This document shows positions 11,385 through 62,976 of a stretch of DNA of 64,000 nucleotides, piece after piece (positions within the stretch are counted from its first letter, which is position 1; every line of letters starts with the position of its first letter). A program made the position numbers and the translations under genes. Under the pieces are notes generated by a model. That model saw only the letters and a program-made list of their open reading frames with translations, searched no databases and was not told the origin of the DNA. This DNA comes from Aurelia coerulea. Taxonomy: Eukaryota > Cnidaria > Scyphozoa > Semaeostomeae > Ulmaridae. The stretch lies in contig CM076957.1 in assembly GCA_039566865.1 (NCBI GenBank), forward strand, positions 12,533,896-12,597,895, in the 5' to 3' direction.

Positions 11385-12165
11385 ATGAACTTAAGGGGAT
11401 CATATTGGCCAGCGAAGCAGCAAAGCAACTTTGGACATGCAGCGTTATTCCAAGGCAAAGCAAGGCCTCTAGGGTATCAAGAGTCAATTGATCGTAAACC
11501 TGCTGTGGCTATCGTCGGCGATTCAATTGTAGGAAGTATCAAGAGGAAAGACATCAATACAGAGACCAAAGATTATTGTGTCACTGTCAAAACATCCAAG
11601 AGAGCGACGGTAGATGAAATGGACTCATACATCATTCCTAAAATTAAAAAAAAAACAGCCAGAAGGTCTGATCCTACATTGCGGAACATACAATCTTAGA
11701 AATGATGACCCTGATATTATCGCTTCCAACGTTTCGAGTCTAGCAATTGAAGCCAAACGAAGGGTAAGGCACGTAGCCGAGGGGCATTTCACTCATTCGA
11801 AAAAGCGTACGAGATTTTTTCAGAACAAAAGGATTTTTATGGATTTTGGATGGATTTTTCTTGAAAACAAAAGGATTTTTGCCAAAGGTGTACGAGATTT
11901 TTTGGAGTGAAATGCCCCTCGCACGTAGCTGTTTCAAGCCTGATAGCAAGAGGGGATTCCGACGTCATGGAGGAGGAGAAATCGCGTAAATCAAATCCTT
12001 GAGCGTTCATTGGCTCCCTATGACATATGTTACATTAAACACAAAAACATTGAAATGGATTGGAGAGACTGCTTAAGGAAGGACGGTATCGACGGTATTC
12101 ACCTTAGTGACCATGGTAGTGCTAAATTCACAGGTAATTTCGCAAGATTTTTAAATAAACGTTGA
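11385..12165 (+). pseudogene. ES-LINE ORF1, SGNH/GDSL esterase domain (broken)
   Basis: The SGNH hydrolase blocks are visible in order: block I VGDSIVGSIK, block III LHCGTYNLRND, and block V DGIHLSDHG with the Asp-x-x-His pair. A frameshift in the A-run at 11642-11660 separates blocks I and III, and a 144-bp MITE splits the domain at 11778-11921; shorter lesions lie near 11985. In CR1/L2-type LINEs an esterase in ORF1 is known and is thought to act in RNP or membrane association. The ORF ends in TGA (12163-12165) directly followed by CTA and an open in-frame continuation. Confidence 0.7.
11778..11921. mobile_element. 144-bp MITE with 8-bp TSD
   Basis: The 17-bp terminal repeats are perfect: CGAGGGGCATTTCACTC at the left and its complement at 11905-11921. 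The 8-bp CACGTAGC occurs on both sides (11770-11777 and 11922-11929). Ignoring the insert and one duplication restores the esterase frame. Subterminal copies of GTACGAGATTTTTT and AACAAAAGGATTTTT occur near both ends. The 8-bp duplication suggests mobilisation by a hAT-type transposase. Confidence 0.85.
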
Positions 12166-12168
12166 CTA
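12163..12168 (+). promoter_or_regulatory. UGA-CUA stop context between ORF1 and ORF2
   Basis: The ORF1 stop TGA is followed by CTA and then open codons in the same frame to the endonuclease start (GL*NINSLRNK near 12529). UGA CUA is an established efficient readthrough context in animals. ES-LINE copy 2 has the same hexamer at the same place. Function is inferred. Confidence 0.5.
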
Positions 12169-15100
12169 CTTAATGAAGGTAATCATATTAATTTTAGCGG
12201 TACGGAGATGCAATCCAAAGTTGACACAGTAACAAATTCTTTAGAATATAGCGTTGTATCTTCAGGGTCCTTAGATATATCGTCGTCTCTAGACACAGCT
12301 TCCACTGGTGTTTCTGAGAATCCAATATCAGAGACTTCCACTAATTCCCACATAGGTCAACGGTGTTTAGAACATGAAAACTCATTGATATCTTCGCAAT
12401 CTTCTTCCAGCATAGGAAATGACTTTTCAACGTCTACACCAGCACAACATCATCTGTCTACTCAAAGTGACATTGTGAAGATTTTTGAGCTGAGAACAAA
12501 AAATCCAAACAGACCTTTTATTGGACTCTAGAACATCAATAGTCTTCGAAACAAAATAACTGATTTGAGAATGGTCATGGAAAGATGTTTGCCTGATATT
12601 TTAGTAATAGAGGAAGCAAAACTAAATTCAGATTTCAAAACTGAGATATTTATGATAAATAACTACCAAAAACCTATTCGTTGTGACAGGAATGAATTTG
12701 GTGGTGGCCTTATGCAATGTGTTAGAAAAGGGGTTATTTATCTGCAATCGAGTCACTACTTTCGAAAGCCCCTCTCTCGAAGTCATATGCTCTGAACTGA
12801 CAGTCTGTGAAAAGAAGTGGATCTTTTTTAGCATTTATTGACCTCCAGATGCAGCCAACCTAGAACTCTTTTTTAGAGAATCGCCTTCACTCTGCGTTGT
12901 CAAATACGATAATGTAATGATTATGGGCGATGTAAACATTGACACTCATGATACTCAGTATCCCGGATATACGAAGTTGATTTCCTTCTGTGATATTTTT
13001 GGACTCTCTAATTTAGTGAAGGAAAAAACATGTTTCACAAAAATTCATAGTTCGTAAATTGACGTTATGCTCACTAATAAATCCAGATGTTTTTAAAGTC
13101 CCTCCGTTTTTGAAACTGGTTTGAGTTGGTCTTGTCTTAACTTTGATGAAAATACATATACCTCACCTCAAACCTAATGTTGTTAAATACCGTAGCTATA
13201 AGAAATTTGACTCTGGACAATTTTTGCACGATGTGAAGAATACTGACTTGAATGATTCGAATTTGTCCTATAGGAATCTTTCATCAGCTTTCCGAAAGCT
13301 TGTAGATAAACATACTCCTTTGAAGACTAAGGTTCAGAGAGGAAATACTGCCCCTTTCATGAAGCAACAATTACAAAAGGTAATATATACTAAATCAAGG
13401 CTAAAAAACACTTAATAACAACCCTACCACTGAAAACAGAAGTAAATTAAAAAAGCAGCGTAACAAATGTGTCTCTTTAAGGAAGAGGGCTATGAAAAAC
13501 CACTTCAAAGAGGCGACAAGAAATGGTACACTGTCTAATAAAGAATTCTGGGATCTTTTTCTTTCAAATGAAGGGGTGCTTATGAGTAGCGATATTTCTC
13601 TTGTGAAAAATGATACCGTTATAACAGATGACCGCGAATTGACAGATATTTTTAATGATCACTATGTAAATATAGTAGAGAAATCCAGCGGTAAGAAGCC
13701 TAGTTGCCATGCTAAAGATACAGGAATTTCTGGTGACCGCCAAATTGTTCCACTAATTCTTGACAAATGTAGAAACCATCCCAGTATCCTAGCTATCATC
13801 CAAAACCCAGAACACGTATTAAACTCCTTCAACTTTCATGAAATTGGCAGTCAAGAGGTCATGCAACTATTAAAATCCCTAGGTGAAAGAAAATCTACTG
13901 GCGAAGATCAAATACCTCCGAAGAAGCTTGTATCTCTTGCATTTCACGAGCTCACAGGCACACTAACAATGGCAATAAACTGTAACATTCGCAACTCTAG
14001 TTTCCCAGATGATGCAAAAAGGCGGCTGTCTGTCCTTAAGATAAGGGAGAGCCAAATCGTACAGTAGAAAGGAATTTCCGCCAGGTTAGAGTTTTTTATA
14101 CCTTTTCAAAGATATACGAAAAAGTCCTAAAACAACAATTGATTCAACATCTAGACAACACGCTTTCTGTTTTCATTGCGGCCTATAGACGAGCATACGG
14201 CACCCAACATGTCTTAATACGTCTGATAGAAAATTGGAGGTCTAACCTCGACAACGACTATCTTGTAAGTGCTATCCTAATGGATCTTTCAAAAGCCTTT
14301 GATTGCATCCCACATGATTTTCTTATTGCAAAATTACATGCATATGTACGGTGCCCCATAGCGGCCAATGAAAGTTCTCATAAAAAATTCGCCCTCTCAT
14401 TCCTATTGCGCAGTAAGCACCTTCTTATTGCGCAATAAACACCTTTCTATTGCGCAATAGAGCACTTTTTTATTGCGCAATAGAGCAGATTCCTATTGCG
14501 CAATAGAAGTGATTCCTATTGCGCAATAGATCGAATTCTTATTGCGCAATAGAACGAATTTCCAAACAGTTGGCTTCAGTCCCCCCAATATCTTAAAGTA
14601 TAATGTGTACGTTTTCCCAAAGAACGGCCTCAGCCTCCCCCAATATCTTTGAAACGCAGTGTTGCCCGCCCGCCCGATCAACATACATTTTCGGATTGAA
14701 AAATGGGTATGAAAATCAACCAGAAAATCCTTAACTATGGGTCTTCCCTAAAAAGACGGGCAGCACCTCCCCGTCATCCCAAGACTCCAGTTACCTCCCG
14801 GGGTGTGGCTGTGCATACAAACATGCAGAAAAGAGCACGTGTCATGGGTACATGTTATTGCGAAATAGAAATCGGTTTTATTGCGCAATAGGAATCAGTT
14901 CTATTGCGCAATAGGAATCCGTTCTATTGCGCAATAGGAATCCGTTCTATTGCGCAATAGGAATCAGTTCTATTGCGCAATAGGAAGGTGTTTATTGCGC
15001 AATAAGAAGGTGCTTATTGCGCAATAGGAATGAGGGCAAAATTTTTTTGTGAATTTTCATTGGCCGCTATGGGGCACCGTACATATGAATTCGAAGAAGA

Positions 15101-16709: not shown

Positions 16710-17023
16710 TGACTCGAAATCAGACGCATCAGATTAGACGCATCAGACGCATCATGTAATCAGACGCATCAGATTTTGTAATACAATAGCAACAGTCAGC
16801 AGCTACATTCTCTGCAACCACTCTGCACTGGTGATACTTTAACAAAGCAAATACTTTCAAAACTATCTTGGAAACAGTATAAGAAGTTATCTGCAAGTGG
16901 CTTGAGCAACTGACGGGAAATTGCGAGACACGACGACGAAAAAACAGCGAGACAAGTTTCAGCAAGTTTCGAGACACGTGGGCCTAAATTTGGTTAGCAC
17001 GTTCCTCAAGAAATTCGTAAGAG

Positions 17024-18313
17024 ATGGCCGAAAGCAACAAATTAGAAGTTGAGATTATCAAGGCCATACCTGAAATAAGAAAAAGCCATAAAAAGCCAGC
17101 TATTGATACCATCACCAAGAGATTTGAACAGAAAAGTAGTAGCTATAATGCAGGAGAAATAACAGAAGCTGTTGAGCGGCTCATCAAGCGTGGCCAGGTG
17201 GAAAATCGGGGGAAAAATGGAGAAGAATCCCTTTACGTGGTGACTCCTGACATAATACAAAGGCCCAAACCATGTCCCTGTGCCAATACTAAATGTACCC
17301 CGTACGAAGAATTTATTTTGCTTCAAAAACAAGTGGAAACCCTCCAAAAGGCACCAAGGAGTAACCATGGAAACAACACAAGTAAACAATCTGAAAAGGA
17401 AAAAGAACTGAAAGAAGAGTTATTGTTGCTGAAAAAAGAAAACGAATCGCTCAAAAATGAAATTAGGAGAAAAGATCTTTTAATTGATAGCATGGAGAAA
17501 ACGGAAGAACCACACATCAGCGAATTCCAATTCCCCAAGAGAAGGAATGTTGCAAAGATTTATTCATCGAATTGCCCATGGGACTACATTTCAACGAATA
17601 ACAACAGGTTTACACCCATAGCCCCGCCACTTGAAGATGTGTCTTTAACAACAGAACTTCAAACACGAGACAATGCAGTTCAACCAAATGAAAGTGCTGC
17701 GAAAAGTATTACTGGGTTAAACAGAATCAAAACATCAGCAACTCACAACGATTCTACCAGAACCTCTATCGATAAACGGAAGAAAATGAGATCCTGGATG
17801 AGGCCATCAGTGCACAATTCAACCGAAATTATTGGAGACTCGATGGTGAAGCACATTCAAGGCTACAAAATGAGTGAAGCAACAAATGGCCAGGAAAAGA
17901 TCTTTGTAAGGGCGTTTCATGGTGCAAAACTGGCTGACATGAATAGTTATTCCGTGCCAACAATGAAGAAAAACCCAAGAAAAATCGTAATACATTGTGG
18001 TACCAACGATGTAAGCAGTGGCACAGCACCAAATGAAGTTGCCCAGGAAATTGTCGATTTGGCAACAAATCTCAAAAGCCACGAAAACGAGGTATTTGTA
18101 TCGAGCTTAGTTCCAAGAGGAGATCGATGGAATGAACGTGTAAGTCAAGTAAATAACATTTTGAAGGCTAATTGTAACAGAGAAGGACTCCCATTTATTG
18201 ATAACTCTGACATAGTACCGGCATACCATTTAAATCGCAGTAACTTGCACTTAAACTCTGAAGGGACACGTATGCTAGCCAATAATTTTTTGAGAGCTCT
18301 AGGCCATTATTGA
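17024..18313 (+). CDS. ES-LINE ORF1: winged-helix-like region, coiled coil, SGNH esterase
   Basis: An intact 429-codon ORF. Residues 1-75 resemble a small winged-helix unit (EIIKAIPEIRKS, EAVERLIKRGQVENRG, SLYVV). A short Cys cluster (CPCANTKC) follows at about 86-93. Residues 110-165 form a Lys/Glu coiled coil (KELKEELLLLKKENESLKNE). An SGNH hydrolase fold occupies 260-428, with block I IIGDSMVKHI and block III IHCGTNDVSS. In block V the usual Asp-x-x-His is Ser-Asn-Leu-His, so the catalytic Asp appears replaced, whereas copy 1 retains DGIH. Such proteins are thought to be RNA-binding RNP components. The start has a purine-rich context (AAGAGATGG). Confidence 0.8.
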   Translation: MAESNKLEVEIIKAIPEIRKSHKKPAIDTITKRFEQKSSSYNAGEITEAVERLIKRGQVENRGKNGEESLYVVTPDIIQRPKPCPCANTKCTPYEEFILLQKQVETLQKAPRSNHGNNTSKQSEKEKELKEELLLLKKENESLKNEIRRKDLLIDSMEKTEEPHISEFQFPKRRNVAKIYSSNCPWDYISTNNNRFTPIAPPLEDVSLTTELQTRDNAVQPNESAAKSITGLNRIKTSATHNDSTRTSIDKRKKMRSWMRPSVHNSTEIIGDSMVKHIQGYKMSEATNGQEKIFVRAFHGAKLADMNSYSVPTMKKNPRKIVIHCGTNDVSSGTAPNEVAQEIVDLATNLKSHENEVFVSSLVPRGDRWNERVSQVNNILKANCNREGLPFIDNSDIVPAYHLNRSNLHLNSEGTRMLANNFLRALGHY

Positions 18314-18316
18314 CTA
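18311..18316 (+). promoter_or_regulatory. UGA-CUA candidate readthrough site
   Basis: ORF1 ends ...GGC CAT TAT TGA CTA TCA. The same frame is open for 100 codons beyond and contains the endonuclease start (GYLNINSVRNKLD). There is no in-frame ATG between the TGA and that motif, so independent initiation of ORF2 has no obvious start codon. UGA CUA is the best characterised animal readthrough hexamer. The use of the site by this element is inferred. Confidence 0.55.
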
Positions 18317-21300
18317 TCATATAGAGAAGAAAGAGCGCGAACTCCCAGTATTGTAAATAATAATTTAGAAGACGAGAATGTTATTTCGGACGATGTAAAT
18401 AACGGGCCAGATATCTCAGGGGTAAAAACATCTACGCCTGATACCTCCACAGATAGAGCTATATATGCAAAATCTTCATTAAAATTGTTGAGACTAAGAA
18501 ACATTGATAGGGTGATCATTGGATATCTTAATATAAATTCCGTTAGAAATAAACTGGATGCGCTAAGGGAAATAGCTTCACAGAATGTAGATATACAATA
18601 TACTCATGGTTGCTGAGACAAAGATTGATGCTACCTTTCCAATGGGGCAATTTGCCATAGAGGGATTTGCAACTCCGTTTCGCTTAGACAGAAATGCAAA
18701 TGGCGGTGGCTTATTGGTCTATGTACGAAGTGATATACCTTCACATCAGTTACATTCTTTCAAATTTTCCGATGGCATCGAATGCATTAGTTTCGAAATA
18801 AACTTGAGAAAAAAGAAATGGGTACTGTTTAGTGTTTATCGACCACCAACTCAGTCACAAGATTATTTATTTGAAAACTTGGGTCGTGCACTCGACCACT
18901 ACAGTGAAAATTATGAAAACTTTATGTTCATAGGAGATTTTAATATGACTGAGACTGAGGAGCAATTGAAAAATTTTCTCGACCTTTATAGTCTCAAAAA
19001 TCTTGTCAAGGAACCAACGTGCTATAAATCACATACACCAAGATGCATCGATCTTGTATTGACAAACCGAAACAGGAGCGTGCAACAAACTACTACAGTT
19101 GAAACTGGCCTGTCAGATTTCCATAAAATGGTTGTTACTGTCCTTAAAACCACTTTTCCTAAACAAGGACCAACTGTAATTAATTATAGAAATTACAAAA
19201 ATTTTAACGAAATTGTTTTTAGGAATGAACTACGAGAGGAATTAGGGAAAATAGGACCATCTGATTTGAATTACAGCTCTTTCGAAACTACTTTTGATAA
19301 AGTTCTAGACAAACATGCTCCAATAAAAAAGAAATATGTACGAGCAAATGACAAACCATTTATGACTCGTGCTCTACGTAAAGCAGTCATGTTACGTTCC
19401 AGACTGCGTAATAGATATAATAAAGATCAGACTGCTGAGAATTGGACCAAATTTCGCAAACATCGAAATTCCTGTGTTAAGTTATTTCGAAGGGAAAAAA
19501 GAAATTATTACAATAACCTAGACATCTCACTTGTCACTGACAATAAGAAATTCTGGAAAACCGTGAAACCTTTTTTCTCGGACAAATTGCAATCTAAGAA
19601 TAAAATAGTTTTGATTGAAGATGAAACCATTATTTCCAACAATGTTGAGGTAGCAGAAACTATGAACGAATTCTTCGTCACTGTAACGGATTCCCTTGGC
19701 ATAAATGAAAACTCTAATTACGAAAATGCAACAGAAGGAATCACAGATCCTATTGATAATGCCGTACATAAGTTTTCCAATCATCCTAGCATTCTGAAAA
19801 TCAAAGGTTGCTATCACAATGCTGGTTCCTTTGATTTTCAGAAAGTTACCCCTGATACTGTTGACAAAGAGGTTAGGAATCTAAATCCTAAGAAAGCTAC
19901 AACGCACAAAAATATTCCTCCTAAAATCCTTAAATCCAATTCTGATGTATGTGTAGAACCTTTGACGAAAATATTTAATGAATGCATAGAAAATTCGTCC
20001 TTTCCTGATGAACTAAAGTGCGCGGATGTCACATCTCTTCCCAAGAATGGACCATCCAACTCTAGGACTAACTTTCGGCCAATCAGCGTTTTGCCTACGG
20101 TCTCAAAACTGTTTGAAAGAATAATGGACAAACAGATAGTTGCATATATTACACCCTTTTTATCGTCACTTCTCTGTGGTTTTAGAAAAGGTTACAGTGC
20201 CCAGCATGCTCTCGTACGGCTCTTAGAAAAATGCAAAATTAGCCTTGATGAAGGTGGCAAGGCAGGGGCTGTATTGATGGACCTGTCCAAGGCATTTGAT
20301 TGCATCAGACACGATCTTTTGATTGCAAAATTGCATGCCTACGGTTTCTCCCGCGAAGCATTAACACTAATTAATGATTACCTCACAAATAGACAACAAA
20401 GAGTAAAAGTAAATGGGTCATTCAGTTCTTGGAAAAGCGTCACACGAGGTGTTCCTCAGGGGTCAGTCTTAGGGCCTCTGTTATTCAACATATACATTAA
20501 TGATCTTCTACTCTTCATTCAAAACTCGGATATATGTAATTATGCAGATGATACTACAATCTATGCCTGCGATAAGAACCTGGACAATATAGCTCATAGG
20601 CTTGAAAATGACTGTAGTTTAGCTTTGGAATGGTTTGCCGACAACTTTATGAAATTAAATGCAGATAAATGCCATCTTCTGGTTCTTGGGCAGAGATGTG
20701 ATGACCCTGTTACTGTTAGGATTGGAAATGCTGATGTTGTAAATAGCTCCGAAGAGAAGCTACTCGGAGTTCAAATTGATAGCAAACTTTCCTTCGATAA
20801 TCATGTTTCCAAATTGTGCCAAAAGGCTAGCAATAAACTTTATGCACTTGCTCGCATATCCCCATAAATGGATCAGAGCAAACTAAGAACACTCATGAGG
20901 GCATTTATTACCAGTCAGTTTCAATATTGTCCTTTAGTCTGGATGTTTCACAGCAGGCAGCTTAACAAAAAAATTAACAAAATACAGGAAAGGGCTTTGA
21001 GAATTACTTATAAGGATGCCGAATCTACTTATAGTGAGCTATTAGAGAAGGACTGTGCCGTTACTATTCATACAAAGAACTTGCAGCTACTTATGGCTGA
21101 AATGTACAAAACTAGAAATGACCTGAACCCTTCATTCATGCAGGAAATTTTCTGTGAAAATGAAAGTCATTACAATCTGCGCAACAATAACGAATTCTTT
21201 CAACCTAGGGTGAGATCTGTCAACAACGGGACAGAAAGCATCCGTTTCAAAGGTCCGCAGCTGTGGCAAATGTTACCACCAACGATACGTAGTTCAGAAT

Positions 21301-21398
21301 CCCTTTGTCAGTTTAAAACAAAAATAAAAAGTTGGAACGGAGAAAATTGTCCATGCAAATTATGCCGCGTTTTTATTCCGAATTTGGGCTTTTTATGA
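18314..21398 (+). pseudogene. ES-LINE ORF2 endonuclease-RT, two lesions
   Basis: 18314-18600 is in the ORF1 frame (linker, then LNINSVRNK). A frameshift near 18593-18605 moves the frame to 18606-20867. That stretch carries the APE endonuclease (VAETKID, RNANGGGLL, FIGDFNMTE, LSDFH) and RT (FRPISVLPTVSKLFERI, VLMDLSKAFDCIRHD, GVPQGSVLGPLLFNIYINDL, CNYADDTTIY). A single TAA at 20865-20867 replaces the Tyr found in the related 26574-27280 copy (RISRYMD). The frame then continues to 21398 and ends in NCPCKLCRVFIP. With only two lesions this is a young copy, though it is inactive as sequenced. Confidence 0.85.
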
Positions 21399-21720
21399 TG
21401 AATATTATTAGATATCTACTTTTACTTTTACACTGTATACTTTTAATGATGTGTAAATATTTTATCCACTATTTGTCTTATGTAATATTTGTATTTTAAT
21501 GTTTTAAAGTTGGAATAAATTAGCTAATTACTTTTAGCTATCTTTTGTCATTTATAATCCAACAATAAAGAAATTGATAATAATAAATAATAAAAATCAA
21601 TCGAGCCGAGCAAAGAGAAGAGAAGATTCGACAAATAGGAAGGAATGCGAGATGCGACGTGACGTAGCGTACATAGGGAATGGGGAATAGGAGGAATGTG
21701 AGAAAAGAGTAAGGAAGGAC

Positions 21721-22680
21721 CTATTGCAGATAAGTAAATTGCTTATTTAGTCCATTAGGATAAAGAGTTTTTAAGTTAAAAATTAAGCGTTTCTCCAAGG
21801 TCTTGCGTTTGGTGGTGTCTTGAGGTGCATATAATAAGCCAAGAATGGACATGTCGGCAGTTGAATGGTTGGTTGAGGAGGCAATGGGAATCTGTAGCTT
21901 TATAGAAGATAGACGTGGAGATTTGGTCATCAGAGATGCTAAGGAGGATGTCCAGAAATGGCAGGCTTTCTTCGGTGATAGAGTGTGTGAATTGTAAGGC
22001 TGGGTGAAAATTGTTGGTGTAGTTGATGAATTTCTGGAGATCGGCCAAAGGAAGAGATGTTGCTCCAACGATGTCGTCGATGTATCTTTTGACCAGGCAA
22101 GGAAATGGACCATTGTAAGATTGAAAGATAAGCTGTTCTTGGTGGCCAACGAAGAGGCAGGCATAACTTGGGCCAAGTTTACTACCCATGGCAACGCCAG
22201 ATGTCTGAAGATAATATTGACCATTAAATGAAAATGCATTAGTAGTTAAGACTAATTCAACAAGGCGTAGAAGAGTGGTAGTTGGTGGGCATTGCAGGCG
22301 TCGTTTGTCAAGGAAAAACTTTAGTGCTTGTAGGCCATCATTGTGGGGAATGCAAGTGTACAATGATTTAACATCCATAGTGAACAGATATTTGTGTGGT
22401 CCTGTAAATCTGAATTCTTTAAAGATGCGAAGGGCGTGGGAAGAATCTTTGACATAGGTAGGAAGATCTTGGACGATTGGTGTGAAAATTGAGTCAAGGT
22501 AGGCTGCTATTTGAGAAGTGGGGCAGGAAACGGCTGACACGAGGGGGCGACCAGGATTATTGGGTTTATGAATCTTGGGCAGCATATAGAAAACAGAAGT
22601 CCTAGGATGTTGAAAATATAGTGCAGAGGCATTGGAGGGGAGATTTTCGTTGTCAATTTCTTCTTTGACAAAATTTATGA
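21721..22680 (-). pseudogene. Penelope-like reverse transcriptase, 5'-truncated
   Basis: Penelope RT signatures are in order: MLPKIHKPNNPGRPLVSAV, TMDVKSLYTCIPHNDGL, TSGVAMGSKLGPSYAC and KRYIDDIVGA (catalytic YIDD), then LPFLDILL. The upstream frame starts near 22680 (INFVKEEIDNE), so the N terminus is missing. The last part shifts frame near 21870: the tail STADMSILGLLYAP is in a neighbouring frame. The GIY-YIG endonuclease expected after the RT in many Penelope-like elements is not seen. Confidence 0.85.
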
Positions 22681-53046: not shown

Positions 53047-54510
53047 TCAAACGAGTGATGAAGGAATGTCTGTTCCGTAACGTTCTGGAGCTCTGCGATT
53101 TCTTACTGATCTTCTTGCTACTGTTTGATTGTTTTCAGTGTCTTTGGCGCGTGTATCATAATCAACGTTTGAATCAGTGTCACTATCAGAGTCTTCTGGG
53201 AGATTAGGTATCGGTATCGACTTGAAGAATGAAGTATTACGGGTAATACGATGTCTGCCATTCTCAGCTGTTCTTCTGGTACCTTTGCACTTAATGATCT
53301 TATATGGTGCATCATTAAATCTGCTTGTAAACTTGTTTCGTTTCTGTTGCTTCACAAGTACGAAATCTCCAACGCGTAAGTTCGATGGTTTCGCGTTACG
53401 TCTCTTATCTGCATAGGATTTATGATATTTCTGACTGATTACTTCATTGCTACGAGCTTCCTTATGTCTGTTTTTAACTTTTTCTTTCAGTAAGGTTGGA
53501 AGTCTGCCTTGGATAGTACGGTTGAACAAAAGTTCACATGGTGGTACTTTCGTTGTGGAGTGTGGCGTGGTGCGGTACTGCAATAAAAATCTATTTAGCT
53601 CTTGTTTCCACACTCTTCCTTCTAAACGAGCTGTCTGCAATGCTTTTCTGAGGGGTTGCATGAACCTCTCCACTTCTGTGTTACTCTGTGGCCACAACGG
53701 TGTGCCTGGGTCATACTTGATGCCTAACGCTTTCACGTAATTCTCAAATTCTTCTCCGTTGAACGGTGGACCATTGTCCGTCCTGATTTCTCGAGGAATT
53801 CCATGAACTGAAAATATTCTGTCTAAACGTGGAATGACTGAAGACGTCTTAGTAGATTTCACTACTTCTACCTCTGGGAATCTTGAATAGCGATCTATAA
53901 TCACTAGTAAATACTCTCCCGTGGGAACTGGTCCAAAGAAATCGATGTGAACCATATCCCAGGGTCCTTCTGGCATACTTGTCATATTCAAAGGTTCTGG
54001 AGGGTTAGCTTTCCCCGTTGCTTGACAAGGTATGCATTTTTCTACTGTGGTTTGAGTGATTTTATCAATCCCTGGAAACCATACCTTCTCGCGAAGCAAT
54101 GCTTTAGTTTTAACGAGTCCTTGATGAGAATCATGGGCTAAGTCTACTGCTCTTTGCTGTAGTACGCTTGGTATGACAATTCTATGTCCTCTTAAAACTA
54201 CATTCTCTGAATTGATTGTCAATTCATCTTTGATATTCTTAAATGGTTGAACGAGATCTATATTCCATTGATTCGTTCTGATTGCTGCTCTCACTGCTTT
54301 CAGTGTTCTGTCTGTATCTGTGGCTTCTTTTATTTCCTTGAGTGTCATGGCTTTCGGGACTGCATAACGAGATATGAAATTGACGTACTCTTCAGCAAGC
54401 TTCTCTTGACGCGTGATTGGTTGATTTTCAGAATATCTAGACAGATAATCAGCTGGATTCTCTGCTCCTGGTTTGTACTTGACTGAAAAACTGTATGGCT
54501 GAAGTCTCAA
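53047..54510 (-). CDS. Gypsy integrase and end of RNase H
   Basis: A 487-codon open frame. It starts with the end of RNase H (KPGAENPADYLSR). An H2C2 zinc-binding region (HDSHQGLVKTKALLREKVWF, KCIPCQA) follows. The DDE core has VHIDFFGPVP, DNGPPFNGEEF and the Glu of SNTEVERFMQ. The C terminus carries a GPY/F-like module (RVGDFVLVKQQ) and an acidic tail ending near ERYGTDIPSSLV. It inserts the cDNA into the genome. No chromodomain seen. The frame is intact. Confidence 0.85.
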   Translation of the reverse strand: MRLQPYSFSVKYKPGAENPADYLSRYSENQPITRQEKLAEEYVNFISRYAVPKAMTLKEIKEATDTDRTLKAVRAAIRTNQWNIDLVQPFKNIKDELTINSENVVLRGHRIVIPSVLQQRAVDLAHDSHQGLVKTKALLREKVWFPGIDKITQTTVEKCIPCQATGKANPPEPLNMTSMPEGPWDMVHIDFFGPVPTGEYLLVIIDRYSRFPEVEVVKSTKTSSVIPRLDRIFSVHGIPREIRTDNGPPFNGEEFENYVKALGIKYDPGTPLWPQSNTEVERFMQPLRKALQTARLEGRVWKQELNRFLLQYRTTPHSTTKVPPCELLFNRTIQGRLPTLLKEKVKNRHKEARSNEVISQKYHKSYADKRRNAKPSNLRVGDFVLVKQQKRNKFTSRFNDAPYKIIKCKGTRRTAENGRHRITRNTSFFKSIPIPNLPEDSDSDTDSNVDYDTRAKDTENNQTVARRSVRNRRAPERYGTDIPSSLV

Positions 54511-54540
54511 AACCCATCGTTCTATTCTCGCTGATGGTTT

Positions 54541-55821
54541 TTATTTTGGACTTCCGTATATAATCTCTAACGGTTTGTGATCTGTGACTAACGTGAAATG
54601 AGATCCAAACAGAAAAAGATGAAAGTGTTCAACCGCCCATACAATACTGAGTCCTTCTTTTTCAGTCTGTGAGTAGCGTTTTTCAACATCTGTCAATCCG
54701 CGACTTGCATAAGCTACGATGCTTTGTGTCCCTGTTTCTGGTGATCTTTGTGCTAAAATTGCTGATATTCCAACAGGACTTGCGTCTACTGTGACTATAC
54801 TCTCTTTGCTTTTATCAAAATAGGCCATGACAGGCGCTGATTTCAATGCTTTCTTCAACATCTCAAAGGAATCTTGATGCTTTTGTTCCCATTTGAAAAC
54901 AACATTTTTCTTCGTCAGCTCACGGAGTGGTGCTGATATAGTAGCATAGTCCTTGATATACTTGGAACTGTAATTAACCATGCCAAGAAAACTTCTGATT
55001 TCTTGGGCTGACGTTGGTTTCTTTGTGTTTTCAAGGGCTGAAATGCGCTTTGGATCTGGAGTTGTACCTCTTTCTGAAAATATTTGACCAAAGAAATTTA
55101 ATGATTTCTGCAAAAACTTGCATTTGCCTGGATTCAAAGTGAGTTTCTTTGCAGCAAGTTTGGAAAGGCACTCCTTAAGGGCGTGGTCATGCTCCTCCCT
55201 TGTGCTTCCGAACACGATGATGTCATCGGCTAAATTCTTTACTCCATTGATTCCCTGTAAACTCGTCTGCAATGTATGCTGGAAAATTTCAGCCGCTGCG
55301 TTGGTGCCATAATTAAGTCGCGTATATCTGTAAAGTCCAACATGAGTACTGAATGTTGTGATTCCTCTGCTGTCAAGGTCGAGTTCTAGTTGATGATAAG
55401 CCTCATTCAAATCTAATTTTGAAAAATACTTCGCTCCGTTCAAATCGAGGCTGATGTCTTCCACGGTTGGAATGAGATATCTGACTCTTTTGATCGCTGT
55501 ATTGGCTACCCTCATATCTATACATAGTCGTACAGTGGCATTTGGCTTTGGAACTGCGACTATTGGGCTAATCCAGTCAGTTGGCTGATCTGCTGGGACT
55601 TTTTCAATGAGTCCTTGAGCCTGCAACTTTTCTACAGCTTTTTCAACTTTGCCACGGATGTGGTAGGGTATTCTCCTTTGTGGCTGAGCTACGGGAATGA
55701 CCTCTTTGTCAATGTTAAGGGTTATACAATGGTCTTTGAACTTTCCTATTCCAGTGAATACTTCCGTGTGTTTGTTAACAATGTCACGAATCTTTTCATC
55801 CTTTGTGTCGATGTCAACAGT
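54541..55821 (-). pseudogene. Gypsy RT-RNase H, one stop and 5' cut
   Basis: The frame from 55821 (VDIDTKDEKIRDIVNKH, IPYHIRGKVEKAV) continues to RT motifs KVPADQPTDWISPIVAVPK, FSKLDLNEAYHQLEL, and NLADDIIVFG (the catalytic pair, here LADD). RNase H follows with TVDASPVGISAIL and a conserved TDHKPLEIIYGSPK. A TAA at 54541-54543 splits this from the integrase frame; the following codons continue the same frame, so it is a point nonsense. The 5' side is broken by LINE-B. Confidence 0.85.
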
Positions 55822-56289: not shown

Positions 56290-57274
56290 CAGGGGCGGAT
56301 CCAGACCGGTTTCACCGGTTTCCGTGCATCGGTCAGATTTCCAAACCTAAGATAAATTTGTATTATCTGCCGGGTATCTGCCTAACTTTACAGAAAAGTA
56401 AAATAACTTGAACCTATTTTCACTCCGCAAACAAGTTTCAAGTCAAAAGGTGATAGTCTTCATAGACATGACATAGGGTACTTCTACACAAACCTTCTCA
56501 TAAACAATAAGCAACCTACATATGGCAGTCATTTGGCTTTATTTGCTATGGTTCTCCAGGAGGTATGTGATTCGAAACCTGCGTTATCAGTTTCAAGTTG
56601 CGCAACAGATTTGCACATTTGATTCGCTTTGAATGGCTGTGACGTTTCGCAATTGTTTTGATATCAAGTCCTTGTAATCTGATGAACCAATAAGGGTTGA
56701 GTGAACCTGTCCAGCGACTTCCGTGAACCGGTCGGCAATTGTTCGAAATCAGTGAACCTGTGTCGATTAGGAAGTAAACCGTTTCTGAAGGAAGTAAAAT
56801 ATGTTTGCAAAGGAAGTAGATTTTCATCGAATAGAACAAGAACGAGAAGGGCCAGCAGACGGCAATGGCTGACCCAGAAAAGGAAGATCTTTATCGACTT
56901 CACAGTGCCATCGAAGAGAAGAGTGAAGGAGAGATACAGCACACAAAACAAAAATATGAGTGTATTTTAGGAAGTTTTGAAGTTGAAGGAAGGCGTAGAG
57001 AATTTAACTTAAATTTTAAGGGTCTGAGGGGTGACGAACATCGATGTGCACAGACATTCGTCGATAAAGTTATTATGCAGAGGATGGGGGGTAGAAATTA
57101 CATGGAAAAGCTCTAGACCTGCAGCCCATCATTATTTATGTAAAAGGGCGTTGCCCTTGTTTTCCAAGAGTCTGAAGGGCGTGGTCATGAAAAATTTTTC
57201 TGGGGGCTTCGCCCCCAGACCCCCTTTTTTGCCCCCTATAAACCGGTCAGAATTCAGGGCTGGATCCGCCCCTG
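56290..57274. mobile_element. 985-bp DNA element with 5-bp TSD (hAT-like ends)
   Basis: The ends are perfect 15-bp inverted repeats, CAGGGGCGGATCCAG, followed by ACCGGTTT near each end. ATTCG flanks both sides (56285-56289, 57275-57279). Without the insert and one ATTCG the LINE-B frame runs LSRINSLQYG, equal in length to the other copy. The right end shares GGGCGTGGTC...GGCTTCGCCCCC with the hAT-like element at 5813-5865, so they are relatives, although that one made an 8-bp duplication. No transposase. Confidence 0.85.
56865..57116 (+). CDS. Short ORF carried by the DNA element
   Basis: An 83-codon ORF starting GGCAATGGCTGACCC, a good animal initiation context. It encodes MADPEKEDLYRLHSAIEEKS, a charged helix-like start, then YECILGSFEVEGRRREF. 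It is unlike any transposase I know. It could be a captured host 5' exon, or chance. It ends inside the element. Confidence 0.3.
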   Translation: MADPEKEDLYRLHSAIEEKSEGEIQHTKQKYECILGSFEVEGRRREFNLNFKGLRGDEHRCAQTFVDKVIMQRMGGRNYMEKL

Positions 57275-60200
57275 ATTCGAGATAAGTATAGATTTCCTTG
57301 ACTGGCCTGTCTCGTTGAATATTGATGAACAGATGAATTGAATAGGAAGAAGTTATGAAAGCAACTAGGTGAAGTTTTATTAACAGAGTCAAAGACAAAG
57401 GTTAAAAGTCGGAGTTCAAATATCTCAGAAAGTTTGAGAAGTTTAAGATCTTTAAAGATTGGAAGAGAGGGTGACATGCGAGGCTGAAATGAGATAGCTC
57501 TGACTGCTTTTTTCTGTAGTTTAAAAATTGGATCAACATATGATGCATATGTTTGACCCCAAACAATAAGACCATATTGTAAGAAGGACAGAAACAAAGC
57601 ATTGTACAAGCAAAGTAAAACATCTAAGGGAAGTAAGTTTCTAATTTTGAAAAAGATTCCACAAGTTCTGGCTAATTTTTTAGAAAGTTCACTGAGATGG
57701 TATTTCCAGCTTAGATGCTCATCTAAGAGGAGTCCTAAGAATTTGACAAACTTGACCCTTTTAATATGCTTTTTCACTATTTTTATCGTAGAATCAGAAG
57801 GAACATTTTTAGAAGGAGAATGAAAGATAATATAGTTTGTCTTATCAATGTTTAATGATAATTTATTAGCATCAAGCCATTTCTTTATTGATCTAAGTTC
57901 TTTGTTAACGATTTTAATTAAGTTAGATAAATCATTTGATTCACAGTAGATGTTTGTATCATCAGCAAAGAGATAGAAATTAAGTTTCTTAGAAGCATTT
58001 GGTAGATCATTGATGTAGATAAGGAAAAGTAATGGGCCTAGTACAGAACCTTGTGGTACACCACAAGTAATTGAAAGTAAGTTAGAATTATTTCCATTGA
58101 CAGAGACATATTGCTTTCTGTCAGACAGATAAGATTTAAACCACTCAAGGGCACAACCGCGCACCCCATGGTGTTCCAATTTTGATAACAAAATTTTATG
58201 ATTCACAGTATCAAAAGCCTTTTGTAAATCAATAAAAATACCACAACCAAATTTTTTATTATCAAGTGTGTTTCTAATAGCTTCTGTCAAACTCACCAGT
58301 GCATGATCAATAGAGTGGTTTTCTTGAAATCCAAATTGTAAGGAATAAAGAACATTATTTATTTCTAAAAATCTATACAGTCGCCTGTACATCAACTTCT
58401 CAAATATCTTACTGAAGATGGGTAAAAGAGAAATTGGCCTATAGTTAGATGGTAGCTCAGGATTCCCTTTTTTGAATAGAGTTATCACCTTGGCTATCTT
58501 AAGTTTATCAGGAAAAGTACCAGACTGGAAAGACTGATTCACAAGAAGAGCAAGAAGTGGAGAAACTGAGGATCCAATGATTTTTAATAATTTCATGGGT
58601 ATACTGTTAGGACCTACGGATTTAGATGGATTTAAAATATTGATTATGTCATTAATTTCTGTCCAGGTGACTGGAGTAAGGAAAAGTGAATTAGAAGTTC
58701 TGTTTGTTAAATAGTCCAGGGGAGACTTAGGTGTTACTGGGATTGTCTTTGTTATTTCATCAGCAACATTTACAAAAAAATCATTAAAAATATTTGACAT
58801 TTTACCTGGTTCTGATGTTACATTTCCTTCCTTATCTTTGATTTTGTTAATTAAAGAAGATGTAGAAGATTTATGAGAGATGATGGTTTTTATACCTGAC
58901 CATAATTTTTTCATATTTTGAGTGTTAGTAGAAAAATAGTTATGAAAATAATTTTCTTTACTTCTTTTTATTTCATTGGCAACACGATTTCTAAATTTTT
59001 TATACAATTTAAGGTTGTCATCAGTTGCATTTTTCCTTAATTTCAGCAAAACTCTGTCTCGGATTCTCATCATCTTTTGCACTCTATTATTTATCCATGG
59101 CTTATTTTTCAGTTTAATTTCCTTTCTACTCCTCTTTTTGATTGGTGCGTGCTTATTTGTCAAAGTACTAAGGTCTTGCAAAAATCTGTCAAATTTTTTG
59201 CTCACATCCATATCACTATTTTCTAAATAAGTAAAGTTAATCTGATGAAAGTCCTCAAGGAATTGGTCATCCTTAAATTTAGAATAATCATATTTGAATG
59301 ATTCAGATTTATTATGACTGACCTGAGTATTTTTCAAAATCAAGAACTGGGGAAAATGATCAGTAATTTGCATTAAAATGTTGCCACTTGTTATATTAGC
59401 ATTGGTAGCATTAGTGTATATGTTATCAATAACTGATGCTCTATGTTCTGAGACTCTAGTAGGATGATGAATACAAGGAAGAAGGCTGTGTGAAAAAAAG
59501 TTGTTGACAAAATCAGTTGTTGGTGTATGGGAAGCATAATCAAGTAGATTGACATTGAAATCACCCATTATAAATACCAGTTTGTTTGAGGATATTTTAG
59601 AAAGAAGATCCTGAAAGTGAGATGTGAGGTTTTCAACAGGTGAACTTGGGTGTCTGTAAACACAACAAATAAGGAAATCTTTATCCTTTTTGTTTTCAAT
59701 CTCCACCCATATTGTTTCAAAATCATCAGTGCAAGAATCTAAGTCTATTCTTGGCTTGGAAGCAAGAGAATTTCTAATATACAAACCAACACCACCATTT
59801 TGAGTAAGTGATGAAGTCTTAAAAAAGGTATAGCCAGGAATATCAACATTAGATGAAATGGGATTGTTAATAGAATGCCATATTTCAGACACTCCAATGA
59901 CATCAAGATTCAGATTAGAGTGAGCAGATAAAGAAACTAATTCATCATGATGAAGGGATAGACTTCTTATATTAGTGTGAAGAATAGAAAAGTCACTAGA
60001 AGAGGATGACTGTAAGGAAGACAGCTCAGGTAGAGTGAAGTAGCGAGAATCAATATTCTGAGGCATGTGCTCATCAATATCATAATCACTGAGATTAGGC
60101 AAATTCACAAGGTTAGATGTAGTTTCAAATGAAGGTAAAAAGTCAACAAAGGATGGAACATCAAAGTCATAAAGTACTGATAATTCATCATTTCCTAAGG

Positions 60201-60408
60201 AGCCAAATGGAAACAAATCTTGGATACAGTGCTTACAAAACCAATGAACCTCATCTGGTTCTTTTTCAAGTTCTCTATATTCACGAGCAGAGATATCATT
60301 GCATTTGATATGGACAAAGAAATTGCATTTATTGCAAAAAATAGCTTTTTGACAATTGCGTATGTTTTTGTGGCAAATACCACATGGTATATCAACTGGA
60401 TTTGTCAT
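57275..60408 (-). CDS. LINE-B ORF2: PHD finger, APE endonuclease, RT
   Basis: The ATG is at 60408 and the frame is open for over 1040 codons up to the inserted element; the last few codons of the raw frame (RGGSSPEF) belong to that insert. Residues 9-61 form a complete C4HC3 PHD finger: C9, C12, C25, C28, H33, C36, C58, C61. The endonuclease covers about 140-365 (HTNIRSLS, GVSEIWHS, FIMGDFNVN, ITDHF). RT covers about 600-860 (NYRPISLLPIFSKIFEKL, IDLQKAFDTVNHK, GVPQGSVLGPLLFLIYINDL, LFADDTNIY). The post-RT region has VWGQTYASYVDPIFKLQKK. No stop or frameshift is seen, so apart from the insert this ORF looks functional. Confidence 0.9.
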
Positions 60409-60656
60409 TTACATCTTATGAGTTCATAAAAAGACCAAGGTGCGGCATACTAAACTGAGAACAAGAAAATAATTGAAATAGGAATATAAAAAATGTATGT
60501 GCACATTCCATATACAATGAAATAATGCCTTTGATAATTTGTCTGAATACTTAGTTTGAAAAAGGAAATAAAATTAGATCAAGGATAATTAATCTAAGCA
60601 TAAATAAGAAGTAACACAACAAACTTGATGGATTGAGTCAGTAAATGGAGACTGCA

Positions 60657-61454
60657 TCAGAAAGTGTCAAATGATATTTCTGCATCACTGTTGTCAGGGG
60701 GCTTCTCTTTTGGACTCTCTGCTGGGCTTTGAGTTTGTCTCCCAAATCTGGACTGTCCCTCTTTGATCACCAGTTTATCCATAACAAAATAGGCTACTTT
60801 GCCTTGTTGACGTGCAGCAATCAAACTATCTTTCTGTAAGGCTCGTCTCTCTAATGTGCGCTTGGCATAGTCAGGAAAGAACTTTACTCCATCTGGCTTG
60901 AGGGACCTTGCTTTTCTAAGCACTGACTCTTTGTCCTTCCATTTGCAAAATTTAGCCACAATTGGCCTTGGCTGATTTGCGTATCTTGGATTCCTATTGG
61001 TACTTTTTATTCTGTGACATCTCTCTATCTCAAAGTTATCTTCAAGATTAAGTTTCTCCTTCAATGCCTTTCTCACAACCTCTTCTGTGTCATCCCATGT
61101 TTTCTCTTCATCTTTATCTTCCTGGATACCAAGAATCTTAATGTTGTTTCGACGACTTTGATTCTCCATGTACTCCAATTGCGATTCAACGTTGTCTGCA
61201 TGGTCATTTATCATGTTGAGATTTTCAGTATGGAGTGCAATTTTTGTATCCATGGTGTCAGCTTTATTCTTCTCTTCGTCGACCTGAGCTTGTGTGAATT
61301 GCAAACTGACCTTGAGGTCATTAATTTCCGTTCTGACTGATTTAAGTTCATCTTTTACATCCTGGATTAACATTGAAAATGTTGTCTTGAATGCGTCTGC
61401 TTGATTCTGGATGAGCATTTTAATGACCTCCAAGGTCACAGTCTCTTGACCCAT
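60657..61454 (-). CDS. LINE-B ORF1, L1-like (coiled coil, RRM, CTD)
   Basis: An intact 265-codon ORF starting MGQETVTLEVIK. Residues 25-105 form a coiled coil (DVKDELKSVRTEINDLKVSL, then NKADTMDTKIALHTENL). The RRM-like part starts at RRNNIKILGIQED. The C-terminal domain has RPIVAKFCKWKDKESVLRKA, then GVKFFPDYAKRTLERRAL. This is the Transposase_22 / L1 ORF1p layout, an RNA-binding trimer that packages LINE RNA. It lies 248 nt upstream of ORF2 on the same strand. Confidence 0.85.
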   Translation of the reverse strand: MGQETVTLEVIKMLIQNQADAFKTTFSMLIQDVKDELKSVRTEINDLKVSLQFTQAQVDEEKNKADTMDTKIALHTENLNMINDHADNVESQLEYMENQSRRNNIKILGIQEDKDEEKTWDDTEEVVRKALKEKLNLEDNFEIERCHRIKSTNRNPRYANQPRPIVAKFCKWKDKESVLRKARSLKPDGVKFFPDYAKRTLERRALQKDSLIAARQQGKVAYFVMDKLVIKEGQSRFGRQTQSPAESPKEKPPDNSDAEISFDTF

Positions 61455-61673
61455 GATTTGAACAACGTGAATTTAGGCCCACGTGTGGCCTAACTAACAG
61501 TGACTGAAACTCAAAAGTGATACGATATTTATTCTTGCCAGAGTGTATTATTCCATGAATGAGAATGTAATTGCAATTGCAACTGCAACTGAACTTTATT
61601 TTATTAAAACATATTTGATGCAAATAGTTAATGCTAAACCTTAGTTAATCAATGTTAAATGGCATCGATAATT

Positions 61674-62954
61674 TCACGTGTTCTCGCTTCGCCATGATGA
61701 TGATGATGATGATGCAACGGTTTGCACTTCCTGTTTTTTGGTTGTCGTGACTTTGTTCAGATGAAAACTAATTAATTTCAGGTCTTGGGCAGATTCTGCA
61801 CTCAGTAAGCAACCACTGTCTTGGTGTTTTGTTACATAGAACGTTGCTATGGTGTAGTGTTTCTTCGTTTCAATCAACGCTTCAAATTTCCCAATAAATT
61901 CAACAGGCGTATCGGTATTGTATGCAAACGCTTTTGTTTTAGTGCGTTCTAATTTTACCCCTTTCATTTGGCGGAATGTTTCTTGATCTAAAACATTGAT
62001 AGAAGCACCAGTATCGACTGTGATCGGGAATTTATGACCTTGAACAGTTATAAAGGTTTTGGGAATTTTCGACTTCGACTTTGCTCCCACTGCGTATAAA
62101 TAATCATCTGAACTGTCTGAATCGGATGATTCAGCGAGGTTTAAAGGGTGTACTGCTTTCTTACCTCTGCGGAAATTTGGCTTAGCTTTATTTGTCTGCA
62201 CTTTTTGGCGTTTTTCTTTACAGACCTTGGAAAAATGGTTTTCTTGCCCACAGTTATTGCATGTTTTCCCTTTGGCTGGGCACTGGCCTCTGTGAGGAAA
62301 AGTTCCCCCACAATTCCAACAAGACAATTTGCGGCGTGTCTGTGCTGGAACACTGGTTTCTCGTTTCTTTGTTATTGTATTAGCCTCCTCAGCGTGAGGG
62401 GTTTCCTTAGCTTCGATATCTTTGGACTGATATCTGCTCATTTCATCACGTCGCCCATCTAACAACATAGCGGCTAAATCGTATTTCGGGTCGCGAAGGG
62501 CACGTTTTCTGATCTTGGAAGATTTTCCCCCAATTATTATCTGCTGTTCCACTTCAAATTCTAATTCTTTGAATTCGCAGTTTTTCGACAGTGTCCTCAA
62601 CCGTGTATGAAACTGATCGAGTGCTTCCGTCGGTTCCTGTGCGGCCTGACGAAAACAATAAACTTCATACCTTCTGTTTTTCTGCGGTTCGAAAAAGGCT
62701 GTCAGCTTGTCTTTTGCTTTTTCATAATCTTTGTCTTCTCCTGTCTCAGCTAACTGATTAAAAATTTCTCTGACTCTGGCTCCAGCTTGGTACAGCAACA
62801 ACGCTCGCTGTCGTTTTGCATCGGTGATACCACTTGCAGTCAAGAACATCTCGAATTCGGTGAGCCATGTTTTCCATCTCGAAGCAAGGCTGGCACCAAT
62901 GTCTGCATCTGGACTAAACTCTGGCATAGGCTGAATTTGCAATGAGTTGGCCAT
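61674..62954 (-). CDS. Gypsy Gag-protease
   Basis: The ATG at 62954 gives 426 codons. The Gag capsid-like region (RWKTWLTEFEMFLTASGI, FHTRLRTLSKNCEF, IIGGKSSKIRKRAL) is followed by two zinc knuckles: CWNCGGTFPHRGQC (a variant CCHC) and CNNCGQENHFSKVC. The protease has the catalytic triad ITVDTGASINVLD, then LLSAESAQDL. The ORF ends after a run of serines (61690-61720) encoded by an ATG/ATC microsatellite; a slip there may have shifted the frame out of the protease-RT linker. Beyond it LINE-B begins. Confidence 0.85.
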   Translation of the reverse strand: MANSLQIQPMPEFSPDADIGASLASRWKTWLTEFEMFLTASGITDAKRQRALLLYQAGARVREIFNQLAETGEDKDYEKAKDKLTAFFEPQKNRRYEVYCFRQAAQEPTEALDQFHTRLRTLSKNCEFKELEFEVEQQIIIGGKSSKIRKRALRDPKYDLAAMLLDGRRDEMSRYQSKDIEAKETPHAEEANTITKKRETSVPAQTRRKLSCWNCGGTFPHRGQCPAKGKTCNNCGQENHFSKVCKEKRQKVQTNKAKPNFRRGKKAVHPLNLAESSDSDSSDDYLYAVGAKSKSKIPKTFITVQGHKFPITVDTGASINVLDQETFRQMKGVKLERTKTKAFAYNTDTPVEFIGKFEALIETKKHYTIATFYVTKHQDSGCLLSAESAQDLKLISFHLNKVTTTKKQEVQTVASSSSSSWRSENT

Positions 62955-62976
62955 GTTTATATGAGTCTATTGTTCA

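Follow-up and report, generated by a model that had tools for sequence, protein, structure and literature searches.

How does an element whose two genes share one reading frame, with a single stop codon between them, produce the second protein? The question is raised by a stretch of 64,000 nucleotides (nt) from the scyphozoan Aurelia coerulea (NCBI GenBank assembly GCA_039566865.1, contig CM076957.1, positions 12,533,896 to 12,597,895 of the forward strand; hereafter the window). It carries a long interspersed nuclear element (LINE) whose first open reading frame (ORF1) encodes an esterase and whose second (ORF2) encodes an endonuclease and reverse transcriptase (RT). The original prediction, made from the window alone, had proposed that this LINE makes ORF1 by itself and, through readthrough of a UGA-CUA stop, an ORF1-ORF2 fusion. 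Comparative sequence evidence supports that proposal, and we consider it very likely that programmed UGA readthrough yields ORF1 plus a rare ORF1-ORF2 fusion. The layout of the element, and of a second copy upstream of it (copy 1), is as follows, in window positions:

about 16813 to 21.5 kb, + strand: esterase LINE with ORF1 and ORF2
16813..17023, + strand: 5' untranslated part, its 5' end approximate (16797-16813)
17024..18310, + strand: ORF1, with ATG at 17024 and last codon TAT at 18308-18310
18311..18313, + strand: UGA stop of ORF1, the proposed readthrough site (TGA in 16/16 clusters of copies)
18314..18319, + strand: CUA UCA 3' context (CTA in 16/16 copies of the cluster that holds the window copy)
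18314..18526, + strand: in-frame linker of 71 codons, free of ATG
18527..18598, + strand: start of the endonuclease in the ORF1 frame (LNINSVRNK...; motif LNINS at 18527)
18591..20867, + strand: endonuclease and RT past a frameshift, up to an early TAA (Pfam Exo_endo_phos, RVT_1)
20868..21398, + strand: C-terminal remainder of ORF2, with the end ...IPNLGFL TGA
12163..12168, + strand: copy 1 (decayed, divergent relative at 11.4-15.6 kb), ORF1 stop TGA followed by CTA
12166..12528, + strand: copy 1, 121 open in-frame codons past the TGA, closed by TAG at 12529-12531 just before the endonuclease motif

We confirmed at 18308-18616 that ORF1 ends TAT TGA CTA and that its frame (frame 0) continues open into LNINS with no in-frame ATG before that motif, just as had been described. 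The open run is 100 codons long and is closed by a TGA at 18614-18616, and many stops interrupt the two alternative frames behind the ORF1 stop. The window copy is inactive, which the original prediction had not mentioned: a frameshift at about 18590-18600 moves the endonuclease into a different frame, read from 18591, and ORF2 meets an early TAA at 20865-20867. The end of the run thus represents damage of this copy, and sister copies continue in frame 0. Alignments of the window copy (L001) to its sisters start at 16797 (L003) or at 16813 (L004, L007, L008, and L010). Copy 1 is matched by the linker of the window copy at 12490-12576, in the same frame (tblastn).

The element is an esterase-type (type IV ORF1) LINE, that is, a retrotransposon without long terminal repeats (non-LTR). 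ORF1 is coiled-coil-like in its middle and ends in an SGNH esterase (Pfam Lipase_GDSL_2, E-value 5.7e-10), for which the best structural match is PDB 4c1b (E 2e-7), which we take to be the esterase of ZfL2-1. The structure of that esterase is described in PMC3905857 (papers are cited by PubMed Central number). ORF2 comprises an APE endonuclease (Exo_endo_phos) and an RT (RVT_1) according to Pfam, and among 14 PDB sequences are those of R2 and of LINE-1 ORF2. Among 26 database relatives of the ORF1 protein (25-99% identity), 21 end at one common alignment column, and the position of the stop is therefore old. No ORF1 relatives were found in viral contigs; L091 (viral contigs) and L092-L094 (genome contigs), which the esterase alignment had retrieved, were rejected as bacterial or viral-contig hydrolases (26-28% identity) with no LINE. 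Likewise, no fused esterase-endonuclease protein occurs among the 120 listed of 831 ORF2-like database matches, a weak test since such proteins are predicted with stops in force. As a separate observation, the N-terminus of ORF1 (17054-17200) bears a weak winged-helix likeness (SAMD1_WH, E 0.0041, below the cut-off), and two database relatives with the same ORF1 type carry a SAMD1_WH domain (P0012) and a SAP domain (P0022), respectively.

We then asked whether the junction is shared by other copies in the same genome. An esterase-domain search returned at least 151 matches, with 150 of 1281 candidates scored, so that counts are lower bounds. We examined 95 of the 151, namely 90 with flanks and five short divergent ones (40-43% identity) picked by hand. 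The junction is covered by 86 of the former, which fall into 16 clusters when grouped at 80% nucleotide identity; L025, L062, L067, and L069 were left out (the match falls short of the ORF1 end, or the next stop is far off). The 16 cluster representatives and the five hand-picked copies make up 21 junction types. All 16 clusters, and 85 of the 86 copies, have TGA as their first stop; the exception, L058, has a TAA one codon upstream of an intact TGA CTA. Most copies carry the CTA seen in the window (59 of 86), others CTT (7), CAA (5), CTC (4), CAT (3), CAC (1), or CCT (1), and the five remaining ones have TTA, ATA, TTT, AAG, and TGT. By cluster, the triplets are CTA in 8, CTT in 2, CTC in 1, CAA in 2, CAT in 1, CCT in 1, and TGT in 1. 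C thus stands at +4, directly behind the stop, in 80 of 86 copies and 15 of 16 clusters. The five extra divergent copies have TGA followed by CTC, CAC, CTC, CTT, and CAG, and all are open in frame 0 into the endonuclease. Over the 21 junction types, +4 C is found in 20 and CTN in 14, against a background rate per codon in the same linkers of 0.17 for C and 0.03 for CTN; binomial probabilities for +4 C are too strong, given that clusters share ancestry and the trials are not independent. At the other end of the element type, a motif search of the window and loci gave six distinct LINE ORF2 terminators, three TGA and three TAG, followed by T (5) or A (1) and never by C.

The reading frame behind the stop is likewise retained. 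The endonuclease motif lies in frame 0 with no intervening stop in 62 of 86 copies, and every one of the 16 clusters has at least one such copy. The remaining copies have the motif in another frame (12), a stop before the motif (4), or no motif (8), which is to be expected where copies have decayed. Linkers span 43-101 codons and have 12 different lengths over the clusters, all in frame 0; therefore, the length changes between clusters kept the frame. Representative linkers contain no stop in frame 0 and 2-15 in the other frames. When they were shuffled with dinucleotide content preserved (1000 shuffles each), the proportion staying open was about 0.001 for L002, a sister of the window copy, and ranged from 0.001 to 0.100 over the 16 representatives. 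Nor is there a conserved ORF2 start: between -40 and +60 of the stop, the 21 junction types share no AUG, neither at the stop itself, as a stop-start overlap or an ORF2 AUG of the SART1 type would have it, nor elsewhere in this interval. An in-frame ATG before the endonuclease is lacking altogether in 23 of the 62 frame-0 copies and in 5 of the 16 representatives.

Selection on the linker was estimated as the ratio of nonsynonymous to synonymous change (dN/dS). In between-cluster pairs with a computable value it is 0.20-0.46, with synonymous divergence (dS) large or saturated; within clusters it is higher, in some pairs above 1, and the recombinant pair L039/L028 has 0.55. A permutation test found fewer amino acid changes than expected in eight of nine deep pairs (P at most 0.022, against 0.072 for the remaining one), using protein-guided alignments, which lean towards finding constraint. 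The pair L034/L082 was significant in this test and was not counted, as the frame of L082 is shifted. In a nucleotide alignment of the same nine pairs, differences at codon positions 1, 2, and 3 sum to 217, 164, and 256. We read this as a linker that is probably coding but loosely constrained: purifying selection seems weak where subfamilies are compared and is not seen where young copies are.

The junction also appears to have survived changes of partner. L039 and L071 are 90-100% identical in 60-nt bins from 60 nt past the stop and only 37-74% identical in ORF1, and for L017/L022 and L034/L048 identity switches about 180 nt after the stop. Different ORF1 modules are thus joined to near-identical linkers and ORF2s, with breakpoints either immediately behind the ORF1 stop or some 180 nt further on, a pattern of repeated exchange. 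An endonuclease tree of 14 representatives and an outgroup (L071 and L039 were left out as short, and L071, which contains stops, also from alignment A2) splits into two deep lineages, one made up of L080, L043, and L088 and the other of all remaining representatives. The esterase tree, much of which is unresolved, disagrees with it by grouping L043 with L052 and L038 (support 83/81). Both deep ORF2 lineages, very distant from each other though present in one genome, keep an esterase ORF1, the TGA-C junction, and frame 0. Exchange of ORF1 between elements has, as far as these comparisons indicate, preserved the junction. Among the sisters of the window copy, identity is about 99% over roughly 3 kb, and six (L002, L003, L004, L005, L007, and L008) start near a common 5' end; at such identity the family is young and its layout was recently functional and mobile.

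We propose that ribosomes would start at the ORF1 AUG and mostly end at the UGA, giving free esterase protein, and that a minority would take a near-cognate tRNA at the leaky UGA-C, of which UGA CUA would be the best form, and stay in frame. These ribosomes would pass the linker of 43-101 residues into the endonuclease and RT and so make a rare fusion, an output analogous to the Gag and Gag-Pol of readthrough retroviruses. That readthrough occurs and that the fusion is a working enzyme we infer from the sequences, as we do the frequency of the event and the amino acid inserted. Low readthrough efficiency would suit a low enzyme-to-ORF1 ratio. The data fit the published context, with an invariant UGA, a near-invariant C, frequent CUA, and a structure neither required nor predicted. 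In humans, UGA CUA is the consensus for high readthrough, and three genes show values of 0.61-2.29% (PMC4359377). UGA-CUAG reaches about 31% in OPRL1, with +4 C especially important, 12 nt of 3' sequence sufficient, and readthrough 6-fold lower with UAA and 3-fold lower with UAG (PMC4132726). A wider claim, towards which we lean with less assurance, is that esterase LINEs may make their endonuclease-RT only as a Gag-Pol-like ORF1-ORF2 fusion by UGA readthrough, with the esterase ORF1 as a mobile cassette that brings its own leaky stop and frame and controls whichever ORF2 lies behind it.

Several observations weigh against readthrough. The original prediction had called UGA CUA a strong context, but the best one on record is UGA CUA G, and the stop of the window copy is followed by CUA U and preceded by U at -1. 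U is the commonest base at -1 (14 of 21 junction types) and has been linked to lower readthrough (PMC12233894). CTA is present in only 8 of the 21 junction types, the other 13 being non-CUA, and CTAG in 5 of 16 clusters; UGA CUU G served as a low control, with 0.27% in human cells (PMC4359377), and the +4 base of cluster L084 is T. Predicted RNA folding behind the stop is unremarkable (z-scores of -1.31 to 2.40 in two windows over the 16 representatives). Selection on the linker is weak, and four young pairs look neutral. In-frame ATGs are present in the linkers of 39 of the 62 frame-0 copies and 11 of the 16 representatives, at differing positions (in L017, at linker position 15). Finally, readthrough is predicted here from sequence, and its product is putative.

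These ATGs could serve an alternative in which ORF2 is started separately, by termination and reinitiation or by internal initiation at an AUG or non-AUG codon of the linker, as has been proposed for SART1 and LINE-1. Reinitiation is known for other LINEs (PMC5972666), and in L071 and L099 an ATG does overlap the stop, though in another frame. Such a mechanism would not force frame 0, yet all 16 clusters have it, across 12 linker lengths; moreover, no AUG is conserved in position, and the UGA and the +4 C would be left without a reason to persist. We consider separate initiation unlikely. It is less likely still that ORF2 comes from a separate or spliced RNA in which the stop is bypassed, for this would not need a linker that is open and in frame right behind the stop, and both hold; in addition, TGA is present in genomic copies with about 99% identity to one another, and these copies returned via RNA, so the RNA that was retrotransposed keeps it. 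A 2A StopGo peptide was rejected as well, with no NPGP-type motif at any junction among the window and 90 loci in a pattern search (five loci match elsewhere). Separately, the L017 locus has a 2A-like peptide, GDVETNPGS, at position 580 on the - strand, in another element adjoining the esterase LINE.

Decoding of the UGA as selenocysteine or through a changed genetic code deserves hardly any credence, even though UGA is the codon used in both kinds of case. Twenty-seven of the 90 copies are still open at the end of the sequence examined, and 15 of them, intact copies from seven clusters, run for 834-860 codons without a further TGA. Such long TGA-free runs mean that TGA does not serve as an ordinary sense codon in these elements, and ORF2 itself ends in TGA in three of six cases. 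Rfam includes a eukaryotic SECIS family, and no Rfam match was found at E up to 1 in window positions 16800-21800. The idea that chance left an open frame in a dead copy would suit the inactive window copy, with its frameshift and early TAA, but the junction recurs in all 16 clusters and also in young copies, which refutes the idea, and we give it practically no weight. Programmed readthrough of the UGA is the reading that we retain.

The window offers a contrasting LINE at 57247-61472 (- strand). It too has two ORFs, but its ORF2 has its own ATG about 250 nt past the ORF1 stop, in another frame and with stops between. From the translations, read by eye, it has an L1-like coiled-coil ORF1 (60657-61472) and a PHD-endonuclease-RT ORF2 (57247-60408). 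Further retroelement frames, also typed by eye, are an RT/RNase H-like frame followed by a tyrosine-recombinase-like frame at 3-2056, as in DIRS-type elements, and Pol-like and Gag/protease-like frames of an LTR-type retroelement at 53047-55821 and 61674-62966 (- strand).

How one LINE RNA can give much ORF1 and little ORF2 is a long-standing question, and the answers so far have mainly been reinitiation models (SART1, LINE-1). We found no earlier description of stop readthrough for a LINE ORF2 in the literature searched, which was without Repbase notes and most subscription papers, and an earlier mention is possible. The nearest known counterparts are zebrafish ZfL2-1 and other type IV ORF1 LINEs, which likewise pair an SGNH esterase ORF1 with an endonuclease-RT ORF2; the present ORF2 lies in frame with ORF1 behind a single UGA, and the comparison with ZfL2-1 is one of domain content. 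CR1, RTEX, and Penelope-like elements have been reported to carry esterase ORF1s, and it has been proposed that lineages exchange their ORF1 (PMC3905857, PMC4120745); the terms 'stop codon', 'readthrough', and 'read-through' are absent from the main texts of these two papers. SART1 and LINE-1, likewise non-LTR elements, also carry ORF1 and a downstream ORF2 on a single RNA, but begin ORF2 at an AUG of its own, through stop-restart or unconventional reinitiation (PMC5972666), and no such AUG is conserved here. For some non-LTR elements 2A StopGo has been described (PMC5972666). In the LTR element Tca2, gag and pol are separated by a stop and a reporter did not support readthrough, and the ORFs of the LINE Zorro3 are separated by several stops (PMC7175516).

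Outside the LINEs, the vertebrate genes OPRL1, OPRK1, MAPK10, AQP4, and LDHB resemble the junction in their UGA with CUA(G) and in that a short 3' sequence is enough (PMC4132726, PMC4359377). The extension is small in MAPK10, with 13 residues, and in LDHB, with 18 nt, whereas the LINE would append a whole endonuclease-RT and has CUA in a minority of junction types. A parallel in layout is Moloney murine leukaemia virus, in which two genes in one frame are separated by one stop and readthrough produces an enzyme fusion, Gag-Pol (PMC5009743); the virus uses UAG and a stimulatory pseudoknot, and the LINE UGA-C with no predicted structure and no homologous Gag. If readthrough is borne out, the fusion would tie the enzyme to the esterase protein, the start of ORF2 in esterase LINEs would be predicted to be mis-annotated by gene callers and in repeat libraries, and non-LTR elements would have a Gag-Pol-like strategy of their own, kept across subfamilies and through exchange of ORF1.

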